Part shown: positions 2,558 through 9,426 of the stretch, in pieces
Numbering within the stretch: position 1 is the stretch's first letter
Layout of the letters: the number at the start of each line of letters is the position of its first letter
NCBI GenBank assembly: GCA_003696125.1
Contig: RFHZ01000394.1
Span: forward strand, 1-9,937
Length of the DNA: 9,937 bases
Reading direction: 5' to 3'
Source of the DNA: Nitrospinota bacterium
GTDB lineage: Bacteria; Tectomicrobia; Entotheonellia; J063
Position numbers and translations under genes: made by a program
Notes under the pieces: model-generated
Told to the model about the DNA's origin: nothing
Seen by the model: only the letters and a program-made list of their open reading frames with translations
Database searches by the model: none

Positions 2558-3796
2558 ATGGCTGAAACAGTAGTCCCCCGGGCCGAAACCCTGGGCAGGG
2601 AAGAGCAAGAAGCACTGCTAAGCGGTTGTGAGGCGATTGCCCAGGCATGTCGCCTCGCCGATGTAGACGTCATCACCGCTTACCCGATTCGCCCCTATGA
2701 CACCGTCATGCAGGCGGTCTCCAAGCTGATCGCCAACGGGGAGCTGGATGCCGAGTATATCGTGGCGGAAAGCGAGCATTCCCAGTTTGAGATCGTCAAA
2801 CACGCCTCGGCCGTAGGGGCACGGGTCTTCGTCGGATCGAGCGGTGTCGGCTGGTTTTACGCCTTTGAAGCGATTACGGTCACGGCCGGTCTCCGGTTGC
2901 CGGTGGTGGCCATGGTCGGAAACCGGGCTCTCGATGATCCGGGAGCCTTTGGAGTGGGGCACAGCGATGCCTTGGCGGTCCGCGATCTGGGCTGGATGCT
3001 GGTCTGGGTAGATACGGCGCAGGAGGCGATGGACACCGCCCTGATCGCCTGGCGGGTAAGCGAGGATCCCCGCGTGTTGCTGCCATGCGCCCTGGGAGCA
3101 GATGGGGCCTTCTTGACCCACTCCCAGCACCTGGTCAAGGTTCCCACCGAGGAGCAGGTCAAGCAGTTCCTCCCGCCCTATAACCGCGGAGATAAGACCC
3201 TGCACCCGGATAACCCGATCACCATCGCCCCCCAGGTGAACGAAGACTGGCTCATGGAGATCCGCAAGCATAACGATGAGGCGATGAAGCGGGCCAAGGG
3301 TGTGATCAAGGAGGTGTACAAAGAGTTTAAAGAGATCTTTGGACGCGGCGATCCCGAATCGCCCTTCTTTGAAGAATACATGACCGAGGATGCGGAGATC
3401 GTCCTGGTCGGCATGGGAACCCTGGCCATGCCGGTCAAGGTGGCCATCCGCAAGCTGCGGGAACAGGGGAAGAAGGTCGGCTTTGTCCGGCTCCGCTGGT
3501 TCCGCCCCTTCCCCACCGAAGAGCTCCAGGCCTGCCTCTCCCGCTTCAAGGCGGTGGGAGTGATCGACCGGGATTACTCCTTTGGCTCCCCTTCCTGGGG
3601 AGGAGTGGTCTTCAACGAGCTGCGTGCCGCACTCTATCCGCTCCAGCAGCGTCCGCATGTGATCGGCTTTATCTGTGGCCTCGGTGGAAGAGAGGTGACC
3701 ATCGAGAACGTGATCGAAATGGCAGGCATTACCCAGAAGGCAGCCGAAACGGGTCGAGTGGAACAGGATAACTACTGGATAGGTTTAAGGGGGTAA
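2558..3796 (+). CDS. 2-oxoacid:ferredoxin oxidoreductase, alpha subunit (oxalate oxidoreductase-like)
   Basis: This 412-residue subunit carries the pyrimidine-binding domain that completes the thiamine diphosphate site, followed by the second alpha domain (LRWFRPFPTEEL, then VIDRDYSFGSPSWGG, then CGLGGREVT near the end). The substrate-loop motif reads AYPIRPYD at residues 41-48. Pyruvate enzymes have YPITP here, so Arg45 replaces the usual Thr. Tyr42, Arg45 and Arg123 keep exactly the spacing of Tyr28, Arg31 and Arg109, which I recall as the oxalate-contacting residues of Moorella OOR. Asp126-Asp127 follow in the region of the mobile switch loop. The predicted reaction is oxalate to 2 CO2 with two electrons to ferredoxin. 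The start is fixed by AAAGGAGG (2543-2550), which lies inside the end of the gamma-delta gene. Beta follows after 3 bases. Another small 2-oxodicarboxylate remains possible as substrate. Confidence 0.93.
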   Translation: MAETVVPRAETLGREEQEALLSGCEAIAQACRLADVDVITAYPIRPYDTVMQAVSKLIANGELDAEYIVAESEHSQFEIVKHASAVGARVFVGSSGVGWFYAFEAITVTAGLRLPVVAMVGNRALDDPGAFGVGHSDALAVRDLGWMLVWVDTAQEAMDTALIAWRVSEDPRVLLPCALGADGAFLTHSQHLVKVPTEEQVKQFLPPYNRGDKTLHPDNPITIAPQVNEDWLMEIRKHNDEAMKRAKGVIKEVYKEFKEIFGRGDPESPFFEEYMTEDAEIVLVGMGTLAMPVKVAIRKLREQGKKVGFVRLRWFRPFPTEELQACLSRFKAVGVIDRDYSFGSPSWGGVVFNELRAALYPLQQRPHVIGFICGLGGREVTIENVIEMAGITQKAAETGRVEQDNYWIGLRG

Positions 3797-3850
3797 GCGA
3801 TGAGCACAACAACCGTTCCGTTGGCAAGAATAAAAGGGGTAAGAGACATG
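3787..3850 (+). promoter_or_regulatory. Duplicated ribosome-site and start context before beta
   Basis: Two similar initiation contexts lie 48 bases apart and in frame: AAGGGGGTAAGCG before ATG 3800, and AAAAGGGGTAAGAGAC before ATG 3848. Either could be used. The second gives 316 residues, closer to the roughly 315 I recall for OOR beta; the first suits tight coupling to alpha. Confidence 0.55.
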
Positions 3851-4798
3851 CCGGTGGAGGAGTATTTCACCTCCGGCCACCGGACCTGCCAGGGGTGTGA
3901 ATCGGCCCTGGTACTCAAGTTGATGATCAAGGCAGCCGGACCACGCACCATTGTCCTGGGGAGTACCGGCTGCATGTACGTGGCCAACACCACCTACTAT
4001 ACCACGCCCTGGGTGGTCCCCTGGATGCACACCCAGCTCGGTTCGTCCGGCTCTGCGGCTCTGGGCACGGCGGCAGGGTTAAAGGCGCTGATGCGCAAAG
4101 GGAAGATCAAGGAGGAACCGCTCAACGTCATCGCCTTCTGTGGGGATGGCGGGGGAGCAGACATGGGGTTATCGGCCATCTCAGGGGCGCTCACCCATAA
4201 ACACTACAACTTCCTGGTTCTCCTTTACGATAATGAATCCTACGCCAACACCGACATCCAGGTCTCCGGACTGTCCCCATGGGGGGTGAATACCACGTTT
4301 AGCCCTCCAGGCAAGGCGAAACGGATTCTGCATGATCGCTGGAAGAAGAATGTGGCGGGGATGATGGCGGCAGGACACCCGGATTGCCGCTACGTGGCCA
4401 CCGGGTGTGCTTCCTTTGCCGTGGATATGATGAACAAGATCCGTAAGGGACTCACGATCGAGGGGCCGGCCTTTATTCACACCCTCGATCCCTGTCCCAA
4501 GGGGTGGGATTACGATCCCATCCTGTCGCATGAACTGGGGAAGCTGGCCATCGAAACCGGTGTCTGGCCCCAGTACGAGATTGAGGATGGGAAGCTTCGC
4601 CTGAACGGGATCACCAAGATGATTGCAGAGGGGAAGCGGAAGCGGAAGCCGGTGCGGGAGTACTTGCTGAAGCAGGGGCGCTTTGCTCACTTTACCGATG
4701 ACGATATCGATTTCTTCCAGAGCAAGGTGGATGAGATGTGGGAGCGGTGGCTCATCCCGGGTGTCATTCCCTTTGCCAAGGAGCTCGAAGAGGCGTAG
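3800..4798 (+). CDS. 2-oxoacid:ferredoxin oxidoreductase, beta subunit (thiamine diphosphate binding, oxalate oxidoreductase-like)
   Basis: This 332-residue protein holds the diphosphate half of the thiamine diphosphate site. The GDGGGADMG motif at 115-123 and the paired DNE/YANT segment at 144-151 bind Mg2+ and cofactor. Four conserved cysteines, Cys30, Cys33, Cys58 and Cys232 (in DPCPKGW), fit the proximal [4Fe-4S] cluster; the 3 and 25 residue gaps match the Cys812, 815, 840 spacing of Desulfovibrio pyruvate oxidoreductase. With alpha and gamma-delta it forms a cytoplasmic complex passing electrons through three clusters to ferredoxin. The first ATG starts 3 bases after the alpha stop. The in-frame ATG 3848 is an equally good start and would drop a 16-residue tail unlike the family. 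This gene ends the oxidoreductase block; structured RNA follows before the transporter. Confidence 0.93.
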   Translation: MSTTTVPLARIKGVRDMPVEEYFTSGHRTCQGCESALVLKLMIKAAGPRTIVLGSTGCMYVANTTYYTTPWVVPWMHTQLGSSGSAALGTAAGLKALMRKGKIKEEPLNVIAFCGDGGGADMGLSAISGALTHKHYNFLVLLYDNESYANTDIQVSGLSPWGVNTTFSPPGKAKRILHDRWKKNVAGMMAAGHPDCRYVATGCASFAVDMMNKIRKGLTIEGPAFIHTLDPCPKGWDYDPILSHELGKLAIETGVWPQYEIEDGKLRLNGITKMIAEGKRKRKPVREYLLKQGRFAHFTDDDIDFFQSKVDEMWERWLIPGVIPFAKELEEA

Positions 4799-4934: not shown

Positions 4935-5948
4935 ATGAGGAGAGAGGGAAGATTTCCAGGTTGGAAGTTCGGAATAGGAACCGTGATCCTGTGTCTCATG
5001 CTGTTGCTGGTTTGGGGGGGAAGCGATGTCTTCGCGGCATGGCAACCCCGCAAGCCGATAGAGCTGGTGGTAATGGCGGGAAGAGGAGGTGGGGCAGATC
5101 GTATTGCCCGGCTGATGCAGAGTGTCATCCAACAGCATAACTGGAGTCCCCGCCCTATCATTGTGGTCAACAAAGGAGGAGGGGCCGGAGCAGAAGCGCT
5201 CACCTATATGATGTCCAAGAAGGGAGATCCCCATGTCCTGATGGTGACCCTGAACAGCTTCTTCACCACGCCGATCCGGGCCAAGCTGCCCGTCACCTGG
5301 CGTGACCTGACCCCCATAGGCCGGCTGGCCATGGACACCTTCCTCCTGTGGGTCCATGCCGATACCCCTTATAAGACGGCGCAGGAATATATCGATGCCT
5401 GCAAGAAGAAGGGACCCGGAAAGTGCATCATGGGAGGAACGGGAAGAGGCCAGGAGGATTCCATCGTTACCGCCATGTTGGAGAAGGAATTTGGGGTGCA
5501 GTTTACCTATGTCCCCTTCAAAGGGGGAGGAAAGGTGGCGGCCGCCCTTATCGGCAAGCAGGTCGATTCCACGGTGAACAACCCCTCCGAGCAGATCGAT
5601 TACTGGCGCGCCGGGAAATCCCGCCCTCTGGCCCAGTTCCTGCCCGAACGGCTCCCCACCTTCCCTGATGTACCTACCTTTGCCGAATTGGGGCATCCGG
5701 GACTGGTCTACTACATGCAGCGGAGTATCATTGCGGCAGGTGGTATTCCGGCAGAGGCGAAGCAGTACTATGTAGACCTGGTAAAGAAGTTCTTCGATTC
5801 TGAGGAATGGCAGAAGTACACCAAGTCGGAAGGGCTGGAAGCGGCCTGGCTTACCGGTGACGAGTTGAATAAGTTCTTTGAAGAACAGACCACCCTGCAT
5901 AAGAAGTTGATAGAGGAGCTGGGAACCAAGCGGATCTTCGGTGAGTAA
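4935..5948 (+). CDS. tctC: TTT-type transporter periplasmic substrate-binding protein (TctC/Bug family)
   Basis: This 337-residue secreted binding protein captures a small carboxylate for the TctAB permease. A signal peptide spans residues 1-34: basic MRREGRFPGWK, then a hydrophobic stretch 12-27, with likely cleavage after VFA before Ala35. There is no lipobox cysteine. Family marks follow: IELVVMAGRGGGADRIAR (42-59), in which the usual PGG loop reads GRGGGAD, then VVNKGGGAGAEAL from 77, and the late DVPTFAELGHPG segment. Bug proteins bind carboxylate through main-chain groups and water in these loops, so the ligand cannot be read off, but citrate, other dicarboxylates and aromatic acids are known for relatives. 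It begins 136 bases after the oxidoreductase beta gene on the same strand. A terminator-like structure after it probably lets it be made in excess over the membrane parts. Confidence 0.93.
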   Translation: MRREGRFPGWKFGIGTVILCLMLLLVWGGSDVFAAWQPRKPIELVVMAGRGGGADRIARLMQSVIQQHNWSPRPIIVVNKGGGAGAEALTYMMSKKGDPHVLMVTLNSFFTTPIRAKLPVTWRDLTPIGRLAMDTFLLWVHADTPYKTAQEYIDACKKKGPGKCIMGGTGRGQEDSIVTAMLEKEFGVQFTYVPFKGGGKVAAALIGKQVDSTVNNPSEQIDYWRAGKSRPLAQFLPERLPTFPDVPTFAELGHPGLVYYMQRSIIAAGGIPAEAKQYYVDLVKKFFDSEEWQKYTKSEGLEAAWLTGDELNKFFEEQTTLHKKLIEELGTKRIFGE

Positions 5949-6061: not shown

Positions 6062-6100
6062 CCTGACCACAGGAGGTATCAAAGTGGGGAAGTGGTCAGG
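6062..6100 (+). promoter_or_regulatory. Inverted repeat enclosing the tctB ribosome site and start codon
   Basis: CCTGACCAC (6062-6070) and GTGGTCAGG (6092-6100) are perfect 9-bp arms. The 21-base loop between them holds AGGAGGT (6071-6077) and the GTG start (6084). As RNA, this displays or restrains the ribosome site. As DNA, the arms contain TGGTC half-sites about 30 bp centre to centre, similar to halves of the GntR operator at 501-517. Confidence 0.6.
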
Positions 6101-6608
6101 AACAGGTACTGGACATCATCAGCAGGAAGAGTGGTGGTCTATGCGCAAAGGTGATATTCTCTTTGCTCTGCTTTTGCTGGCAGTAGCCATCATCACCATG
6201 TTTGAGGCGGCGAAACTCAGGATAGGGTGGGTTCCTGGGGCCGGTCCGGGAGGAGGGGCCTTTCCCTTCTGGATAGCGGCCTTGATGGCCTTACTCTGTA
6301 TCATCATCATCCTGCGAGCCCTGTTCGGCCACCAGATGCAGGGCCCCTTTTTTGTCAGTAGAGAAGGGGCGAGAACGGTGATCAAGGTGGCCCTCTTATT
6401 CTCGGCTGCCGTCGCTTCGATCTCGATCCTGGGTTTCTATGGGGCCATGTTTGCCCTTTTTCTCATTTACCTGAAGGGGTTAGGCCGGCATAAGTGGAGT
6501 ACCACCATCCTGGTGGCTATTCTCGTCCCTTTGGGGCTGTACCTCTTTTTCGATGTGTTCCTGCTGGTACCCTTACCCAAAGGGATGCTGGAGTTTTTCT
6601 TCTACTAG
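6084..6608 (+). CDS. tctB: TTT-type transporter small membrane subunit (TctB family)
   Basis: This 174-residue protein is the small, poorly conserved membrane partner of TctA. Four hydrophobic helices are visible, around residues 24-40, 57-77, 95-115 and 141-160, which is the family pattern. The motif GPGGGAFPFWIA after the first helix and the closing PLPKG turn are typical of TctB. The GTG at 6084 is backed by an ideal AGGAGGT six bases upstream. ATG 6141 would give MRKGDILFALLL, which looks like the usual family start, but its ribosome site is weak; the 19-residue polar extension is otherwise unexplained. It follows tctC after a terminator-like structure and precedes tctA, so it is part of one importer. 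Confidence 0.9.
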   Translation: MGKWSGTGTGHHQQEEWWSMRKGDILFALLLLAVAIITMFEAAKLRIGWVPGAGPGGGAFPFWIAALMALLCIIIILRALFGHQMQGPFFVSREGARTVIKVALLFSAAVASISILGFYGAMFALFLIYLKGLGRHKWSTTILVAILVPLGLYLFFDVFLLVPLPKGMLEFFFY

Positions 6609-6696: not shown

Positions 6697-8250
6697 ATGG
6701 ATAGTATGGGGAGTGTCCTTCAGGATCTGCTCTTCGGATTTCAGGTTGCATTAACACCCTTTAACTTGAGCATTGCCGCGATCGGTGTGGTGTTGGGAAC
6801 GATCATCGGTGCGGTACCTGGACTCGGTCCCTCTAACGGTGTGGCCATCCTCCTCCCGGTGACCTTCCTCGTCCCGGCCAATGCAGCCATCATCTTCGTT
6901 GCCGGTATCTACTACGGCGCCTGTTATGGAGGGGCTATCTCCTCCATCCTCCTGGGTATTCCCGGTGATTCGATTGCCGTGGCCACCACCTTTGATGGAC
7001 GTCCCTTAGCCCTCAAGGGGAGAGGAGCGCAGGCACTCATTACGGCAGCAGCCAGCTCTTTTGTGGGAGGGACGGTCGGTATCGTCCTCATAACCACGCT
7101 GGCCCTCCCCCTGGCTAACTTTGCCCTCAAGTTCGGCCCACCGGAAAACTTTGCCATCATGATGCTCGCCTTTGCCACCTTTGTCGGCCTGGGTGGTCGG
7201 GACCCCTTCAAATCCCTGGTCTCGGTCTGCCTGGGACTCATCGCCAGTGCCATCGGGATCGATATCATCGGTGGCATGCCGCGTCTCATCTATGGAGGCT
7301 ATGCCGGCTTCTACCACGGTATCAGCTTCCTGGTCGTCACCATCGGGGTTTACGGTATCGGGGAGATCCTGGCCACGGTGGAGGAGAATATTCATTTTGA
7401 GATCACCAAGACCCGTATCCGGTGGCATCACTATGTGGAGACCTTTAAGGAGATTGTCCGCTACTGGAACACGTTTATTCGATCCGCCTTGTTCGGGTAC
7501 TTCATCGGGCTGGTCCCGGCTGCAGGTGCTACCCCGGCGGCCTTCATGAGTTATGGCCTGACCAAGCGCTTCGGCAGGGATCGGGATAAACTGGGTGAGG
7601 GGTGCCTGGAAGGGGTGGTGGCCCCGGAGACGGCCAACAACGCGGCCAGCACCGGTGCTTTCCTCCCCATGCTGACCATGGGTATCCCCGGTTCACCTAC
7701 CACGGCGGTTATCCTGGGTGCCCTGATCGTGTGGGGACTGCGTCCCGGTCCTCTCCTCTTCATCGAACACCGAGACTTTGCCTGGGGCCTGATTGCCAGC
7801 CTCTATACCAGTAACATCGTGGCCGTATTGCTGAATACACTGGCCATTCCCGTCTTTGTCGCCATCCTCCGCATCCCCTTTACCGTCATGGCTCCCCTGG
7901 TCGTGGCCCTGAGTGTCTCCGGAGGATTTGCCGCCGATCAGGCCTATATCGATATCTGGTGGGTATTGATCTTCGGGCTGGCCGGGTACATGTTTAAGAA
8001 GCTCCACTACCCGATAGCCCCCCTCATCCTGGCCCTGGTGTTAGGGGATATGACCGAGACGGCGTTGCGACAGAGCCTGGTGATGTCCCAGGGATCGCTC
8101 GCCATCTTCTTCACCCGGCCTATTTCCCTGGCCTTCATGATCATCGCCATCCTGCTCTTCTTAACCCCGGTCTTCCAGGCCCTCCTCAAGCGGGCCCGCA
8201 CGCAGAGACGTATGGCCGAAGAGGTTCCCCAGACCACGGTAGATGTCTAA
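6697..8250 (+). CDS. tctA: TTT-type transporter large permease subunit (TctA family)
   Basis: This 517-residue polytopic inner-membrane protein has the normal TctA length and about a dozen hydrophobic segments. It forms the translocation path of a secondary importer driven by a proton or sodium gradient, fed by TctC. Conserved glycine/proline loops are clear: VLGTIIGAVPGLGPSNG from 32, YGGAISSILLGIPGD soon after, and the second-half APETANNAASTGAFLPMLTM (309-328) leading into GIPGSPTTAVILGAL. These two PG-type loops are thought to line the transport site. The C-terminus is basic and cytoplasmic. It completes the three-part importer next to the oxidoreductase. All key motifs are intact and no frameshift was seen. 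The substrate is inferred only from context. Confidence 0.96.
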   Translation: MDSMGSVLQDLLFGFQVALTPFNLSIAAIGVVLGTIIGAVPGLGPSNGVAILLPVTFLVPANAAIIFVAGIYYGACYGGAISSILLGIPGDSIAVATTFDGRPLALKGRGAQALITAAASSFVGGTVGIVLITTLALPLANFALKFGPPENFAIMMLAFATFVGLGGRDPFKSLVSVCLGLIASAIGIDIIGGMPRLIYGGYAGFYHGISFLVVTIGVYGIGEILATVEENIHFEITKTRIRWHHYVETFKEIVRYWNTFIRSALFGYFIGLVPAAGATPAAFMSYGLTKRFGRDRDKLGEGCLEGVVAPETANNAASTGAFLPMLTMGIPGSPTTAVILGALIVWGLRPGPLLFIEHRDFAWGLIASLYTSNIVAVLLNTLAIPVFVAILRIPFTVMAPLVVALSVSGGFAADQAYIDIWWVLIFGLAGYMFKKLHYPIAPLILALVLGDMTETALRQSLVMSQGSLAIFFTRPISLAFMIIAILLFLTPVFQALLKRARTQRRMAEEVPQTTVDV

Positions 8251-8475: not shown

Positions 8476-9426
8476 ATGGAGGGAAACGCTCTGATCAGTA
8501 CTCTGCTTTTCGTCGTGGGTCTTGCCCTGCTCATCAAGGGGAGCGATGCCTTTATCGAAGGGGCGGCCTATATTGCGCGATACTACCGTGTTTCCGAAGC
8601 GATCATCGGCATCACCCTGGTCTCCATGGGGACCTCTCTGCCGGAACTGGCCTCTGATACCTATGCTTCCTACCTGGGGAAGGGGCTGCTGGCAGTAGGG
8701 GATATTGTGGGGAGTAACATCACCAATGTGGCCCTGGTGCTGGGACTGGGAGTGGCGGCGGTCCCGGGCATTGCCGTGAATCGGACCATGGCCGTACGAG
8801 ACGGTTTCATAATGCTTATCGCCCTCTCCTTCTTCGCCTTTCTCGCCTGGGGAGATATCTCCCGCCTGGAGGGAACCCTGCTCCTGCTCGGTTTTGCTTC
8901 TTATCTCTTCTTCCTTTACCGGCAACAGCAGAAAGAGCTGGCCTCCTGGGTCGAGGTGGAGGAGGTTACGGGGAGGATTCGCAGCATCCGTACCGCCTTT
9001 GTCATGCTGGTGGTGGGAGGAGGGGTGGTCTTTTTGGGGTCCCGCCTGGTGGTGGATGGGGCGGTAACGATTGCCCGCATTCTGGGGGTAGCGGAGAGTA
9101 TCATCGGTGCCACCATCATGGCCTTTGGTACCTCGGTCCCGGAGCTGGCCGTGACCGTCGGTGGACTGGTCAAGAAGCATACGGATATCTCGGTAGGGAA
9201 CATCATCGGCAGCAACATCTTCAATGTGATGTGGATCATCGGCGTTTCTTCCCTGGTTCGTCCCCTCCCGGTAGACGATGCCCTCCTATTCGTTCATATC
9301 CCGGTGATGCTGGCCGTCTCCTTCCTCCTGGTCTTCTTCATGCTGAGAAGGGGGGAGCTCCTGCGCTGGCAGGGGGTGGTTTTTCTCCTCATCTATACCC
9401 TCTTTGTCGGGTATAACTATTTTTGA
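8476..9426 (+). CDS. Calcium/cation antiporter, CaCA family (YrbG-like Na+/Ca2+ exchanger)
   Basis: This 316-residue membrane protein has about ten helices in two inverted halves, the normal build of bacterial CaCA exchangers that expel Ca2+ against Na+ or H+. Each half has the ion-binding alpha repeat: GTSLPE (52-57) with GDIVGSNITN (75-84), and GTSVPE (218-223) with GNIIGSNIFN (241-250). The acidic Glu57 and Glu223 expected for Ca2+ coordination are present. The first repeat has Asp76 where the second has Asn242. A charged cytoplasmic loop joins the halves (about 148-170). The ATG at 8476 has only a weak ribosome site (AAGG, distant), so expression may be low. It is 225 bases from tctA, so co-transcription is unsure. 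The 3' end overlaps the opposite-strand ABC gene by 10 bp. The family is secure; the exact counter-ion is not. Confidence 0.93.
   Translation: MEGNALISTLLFVVGLALLIKGSDAFIEGAAYIARYYRVSEAIIGITLVSMGTSLPELASDTYASYLGKGLLAVGDIVGSNITNVALVLGLGVAAVPGIAVNRTMAVRDGFIMLIALSFFAFLAWGDISRLEGTLLLLGFASYLFFLYRQQQKELASWVEVEEVTGRIRSIRTAFVMLVVGGGVVFLGSRLVVDGAVTIARILGVAESIIGATIMAFGTSVPELAVTVGGLVKKHTDISVGNIIGSNIFNVMWIIGVSSLVRPLPVDDALLFVHIPVMLAVSFLLVFFMLRRGELLRWQGVVFLLIYTLFVGYNYF

Follow-up and report, generated by a model that had tools for sequence, protein, structure and literature searches.

Our analysis indicates that the window, the complete 9,937-nucleotide stretch of contig RFHZ01000394.1 from a Nitrospinota bacterium, carries an operon whose enzyme is probably a CoA-independent oxalate:ferredoxin oxidoreductase, belonging to a sister clade of the oxalate oxidoreductase (OOR) of Moorella thermoacetica. 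The initial annotation had put oxalate forward as the best candidate substrate, and this proposal gains support from the placement with OOR in both the alpha and the beta tree and, as a new line of evidence, from linkage to oxalate/formate antiporters. Substrate, product, electron acceptor, CoA independence and transporter substrate are predicted here from the observed sequences, their conservation, phylogeny and gene linkage. With moderate confidence we further propose that the clade represents a widespread second class of OOR, outside published oxalotrophy surveys, in which the switch aspartate is lost from its OOR position with new acidic residues nearby, and which would allow uncultured lineages that respire, among them SAR202, Rokubacteria, Methylomirabilota and Acidobacteriota, to oxidise oxalate without CoA.

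On the plus strand, a gene for a GntR-family regulator with an FCD domain (619-1332; PF00392 82.7 bits, PF07729 111.1 bits), the probable local regulator of the operon, precedes those for the gamma-delta (1401-2555), alpha (2558-3796; 412 aa) and beta (3800-4798) subunits, bearing out the fused gamma-delta gene and three-gene order read earlier from the sequence. The gamma-delta protein comprises domain III and two [4Fe-4S] clusters with the ligands Cys276/279/282/286 and Cys306/309/312/316, and beta contains the TPP-binding domain and a further [4Fe-4S] cluster (Cys30/33/58/232). Three subunits with a fused gamma-delta chain and two delta clusters is also the composition of OOR. Downstream on the same strand are TctC, a periplasmic carboxylate-binding protein (4935-5948; PF03401 128.9 bits), the small membrane subunit TctB (6084-6608; PF07331 59.5 bits) and the large membrane subunit TctA (6697-8250; PF01970 459.7 bits), which together form a candidate oxalate uptake system; a paper search on TTT with oxalate found no oxalate-specific TTT system. 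The order gntR-gamma-delta-alpha-beta is conserved among relatives, with gntR directly upstream in most of them and downstream of tctA in Rokubacteria, and tctCBA follows beta in the window as well as in Methylomirabilota, Rokubacteria and Armatimonadota loci.

OOR was the best match of all three subunits in PDB sequence and NCBIfam searches, with alpha aligning to 5c4i_A at 369 bits (E 2.6e-109), beta to 5c4i_C at E 5.4e-88 and gamma-delta to 5c4i_B at E 1.5e-18 (further Moorella OOR structures are 5exd and 5exe). The fold models agreed, as the alpha model matched OOR best, at 46% identity in the fold alignment, and the eight best PDB matches of the AF2 gamma-delta model were all OOR chains. 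All three subunits nevertheless stayed below the NCBIfam equivalog cut-offs (alpha NF045791, 423 against 500 bits; beta NF045792, 354 against 590; delta NF045790, 90 against 230), and the NF045791 scores fell into separate ranges for canonical OOR (542-593), the window clade (365-423) and the other sequences sampled (334 or less). In an IQ-TREE phylogeny of 62 alphas, in which canonical OOR comprised Moorella, two Chloroflexota genomes and one Acidobacteriota genome, the window clade (34 rows) formed one group (100/99) and was the sister of canonical OOR (100/100); a beta tree of 41 rows gave the same sister placement (100/99). An alpha chain placed among pyruvate, branched-chain or aryl-glyoxylate enzymes had been named as the finding that would speak against oxalate, and was not seen: alpha groups with OOR apart from the pyruvate and 2-oxoglutarate types, the branched-chain and phenylglyoxylate enzymes having been compared by profile score only. 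Judged by these scores and trees, we classify the window clade as a sister family of canonical OOR and not as canonical OOR, since the NCBIfam cut-offs are missed and Asp116 (Moorella numbering) is absent.

The alpha subunit carries AYPIRPYD at residues 41-48 (YPIRPY at 42-47, codons 2681-2698, plus strand) and GNRALDDPG from residue 121, and the alignment to 5c4i_A equates Tyr42, Arg45 and Arg123 with Tyr28, Arg31 and Arg109 of Moorella OOR, which we take, with the backing of one paper (PMC5020499), to be oxalate contacts, at the constant offset of 14 noted before. The initial annotation regarded these three as the active-site set of OOR. Across 132 aligned alphas (91 from the window clade, four canonical OOR and 37 from other 2-oxoacid:ferredoxin oxidoreductases, OFORs) this view had to be narrowed, because the Tyr28 and Arg109 columns are near-universal, leaving Arg45 as the only diagnostic residue. 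The arginine of YPIRPY was found in 91/91 window-clade and 4/4 canonical OOR alphas and in none of the 37 others, of which 34 have Thr, two Ser and one Gly at this column, a distribution that goes beyond chance. Moreover, the set is incomplete. YPIRP was described as unique to Moorella OOR, whose bait-and-switch mechanism was said to hinge on Arg31 and Asp116 (PMC5020499), and the Asp116 column, Asp in 4/4 canonical OOR, is Ala in 91/91 window-clade alphas (Ala130 here). In the switch or plug loop (residues 125-131; 2930-2950, plus strand) Moorella LDPPGDF is thus LDDPGAF, with Pro113 also replaced by Asp (Asp127); the remainder, LDxPGxFG with Asp112 and Phe117, is invariant in the window clade and OOR and absent from other OFORs. 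Furthermore, alpha Tyr33 and Gln62 (Moorella numbering) as well as beta Thr29, Tyr60, Asn63, Gln79, Phe167 and Lys234 (window numbering) are common to the clade and OOR and are not those of pyruvate:ferredoxin oxidoreductase (POR). Beta differs from OOR and POR at Asp152, where both have Gly (NTDIQ versus NTGIQ), next to an Asn whose active-site role is taken from Asn996 of Desulfovibrio PFOR (PMC5020499). The new acidic residues alpha Asp127 and beta Asp152, near the lost switch aspartate, may substitute for Asp116. Residues 122-140, including the switch loop, were unresolved in the AF2 alpha monomer (pLDDT <50).

All 12 cluster cysteines of Moorella OOR are present across the window's subunits, the four of beta aligning with 5c4i_C and those of gamma-delta being invariant in 28 aligned sequences. 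The Gly-rich loop GRGGQG is present in 18 POR-type gammas. The clade has YRG(I/V)FQK in its place, with YRGIFQR in the window itself, and Moorella has ARGVVMNK. Domain III was reported to form the CoA P-loop of PFOR (PMC8091585), from which we infer that GRGGQG is this loop, and its loss in both the clade and OOR fits a CoA-independent enzyme.

In the proposed reaction, oxalate would enter via TctCBA, or via OFA-family antiporters in relatives, and would be held by Arg45 and Arg123 at the TPP site between alpha and beta. Attack by TPP would release one CO2, and the second would leave from carboxy-TPP. Two low-potential electrons would travel by way of the beta cluster and both delta clusters to ferredoxin, with no CoA involved; expression would probably be under GntR/FCD control.

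No OxlT-type antiporter is encoded in the window, which, like its Methylomirabilota, Rokubacteria and Armatimonadota relatives, carries TctCBA instead. Among 31 genomes with OOR-family genes, however, 11 of the 15 antiporters above the TIGR04259 cut-off have an OOR-family gene no more than 10 kb away; for ten of them this neighbourhood includes the window clade, and nine of these ten have no canonical OOR there. A simple null model, which ignores shared ancestry, gives p of about 6e-21 for this linkage. Because a second set of 16 genomes was picked before the antiporters were looked up, it tests the linkage seen in the first set. The linked loci belong to Acidobacteriota and Chloroflexota: an antiporter above the cut-off adjoins the Acidobacteriota operon downstream (L055, L062, L080, L186) or upstream (L187), in the orders gntR-gamma-delta-alpha-beta-OxlT and OxlT-gamma-delta-alpha-beta-gntR, and the Chloroflexota antiporters stand 8.4 kb from the operon. 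The two gene orders, together with the Chloroflexota cases, speak for the linkage having arisen more than once. Against the oxalate reading counts that an oxalate/formate exchanger wants formate as counter-ion and OOR makes none. The two MFS genes of a further relative (L004) were considered as oxalate transporters and were not of the oxalate family.

The main doubt about oxalate comes from the lost switch aspartate and from the coexistence with canonical OOR in one genome, which leave room for a related small substrate. An OOR-derived enzyme could have been retuned to another small anion (glyoxylate, mesoxalate, tartronate semialdehyde, oxamate or similar) with Arg45 retained for a further polar or carboxylate group, and Ala130, Asp127 and beta Asp152 would suit such a change, as would alpha Glu78 and His82, which stand where Ser and Gly are conserved. 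One Acidobacteriota cluster (L166; contig C257 of G008, 6149-19192) contains, on one strand and in this order, gntR, the window-clade gamma-delta, alpha and beta genes, canonical OOR and an oxalate/formate antiporter, an arrangement that argues against simple redundancy of the two enzymes. FMN-dependent 2-hydroxyacid dehydrogenases, which 29 Dehalococcoidia/SAR202 loci (L011-L054) carry downstream of beta at a distance of up to about 4 kb, might also be set on this side; they could feed glyoxylate or oxalate or reflect plain synteny. We nevertheless consider a retuned substrate unlikely, given that the clade otherwise keeps the OOR pocket signature and that ten of the 15 antiporters above cut-off lie near it, nine of them with no canonical OOR within the same distance.

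A CoA-dependent pyruvate or branched-chain 2-oxoacid:ferredoxin oxidoreductase is very improbable. The superfamily is common to both, and the PorABCD-type POR of Methanosarcina acetivorans (PDB 9bt4) shares the fold, the TPP and cluster domains, the Arg114-type arginine and the Tyr of YPITP; in addition, eight Rokubacteria loci and one Acidobacteriota cluster (L061, L069-L071, L074, L078, L079, L083, L167) have pyruvate phosphate dikinase in the neighbourhood of the operon, the Acidobacteriota cluster also with a glyoxylate aminotransferase-like gene. This POR, however, has Thr instead of Arg at the carboxylate-binding position, a separate gamma with GRGGQG and a separate clade, and the window's subunits do not classify as PorABCD; Arg45, the lost loop and the placement in both trees strongly disfavour the pyruvate or branched-chain reading. 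OFOR enzymes are generally reversible, and the enzyme could in principle run backwards, using reduced ferredoxin to turn CO2 into oxalate, which we regard as equally remote, as uptake-type transporters adjoin the operon and a heme-copper oxidase-family gene (PF00115, which also includes NO reductases) in 12/13 window-clade genomes points to oxidation.

On present genomic evidence, the physiology is best read as oxidation of oxalate without CoA in uncultured lineages most of which respire. The clade's genomes differ in this from Moorella, and with CODH/ACS in only 1/13 they were rejected as acetogens. The Frc/Oxc pathway (formyl-CoA transferase and oxalyl-CoA decarboxylase) probably uses the same substrate, has a TPP-dependent step and is served by OxlT-family transporters, but is CoA-activated and yields formate. 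In the window's own genome neither oxc (304.8 against the TIGR03254 cut-off of 739.4 bits) nor frc (269 of 504 bits needed) was found above cut-off, and none of 15 genomes had Oxc above cut-off. A TPP enzyme conserved near SAR202 loci was examined as oxalyl-CoA decarboxylase and rejected, scoring best as sulfoacetaldehyde acetyltransferase or acetolactate synthase-like.

A scan of genome contigs identified 231 relatives. The best 80, at 65-77% identity, belong to Chloroflexota (SAR202 and Dehalococcoidia among them), Methylomirabilota, Rokuibacteriota, Armatimonadota and Acidobacteriota, and to a single archaeal MAG. The clade occurred in 12/201 Chloroflexota and 4/199 Acidobacteriota genomes (samples including each centre genome), and the phylum of the window's genome was represented by five genomes. 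A mobile-element source was rejected, as plasmid tblastn matches were only POR and NifJ-type relatives below 37% identity. The clade is a sister branch of the only acetogen enzyme known and has apparently not been reported before: the open-access papers we read present oxalate oxidoreductase as an enzyme of Moorella, and a search of the open-access literature for oxalate together with SAR202, Rokubacteria and related names turned up no claim of this kind. One oxalate-degradation survey explicitly left OOR out (PMC8062136), and another, built on oxc, frc, oxdC and oxlT, did not include it (PMC10192776). If the clade oxidises oxalate, such surveys overlook a route without CoA in uncultured bacteria that are abundant in soil, groundwater and the deep ocean. 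Moreover, the fixed change of Asp116 to Ala makes the proposed bait-and-switch mechanism directly testable, since a large natural sister clade without the switch aspartate is at hand. Oxalate itself is a common plant and fungal acid.

Several further observations concern individual loci. Two Chloroflexota genomes (L159 and L160, in G035 and G193) carry canonical OOR above cut-off with Asp116 present, both alongside CODH/ACS. The delta subunit of the canonical OOR in the Acidobacteriota cluster L166 is fused to a GltD-like NAD(P)-binding flavoprotein (610 aa), which suggests a link to NAD(P) instead of ferredoxin. Within the class of the window's genome, an orthologous alpha (L161, G001) is split over three reading frames, with tctA nearby, and either long-read indels or a pseudogene would account for this. 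Finally, Na+/Ca2+ antiporters of three mutually dissimilar subfamilies stand near the operon, in the window (8476-9426), in L004 (11745-12965), and in L185 (12795-13871) and L184, and possibly serve calcium handling during the use of calcium oxalate.
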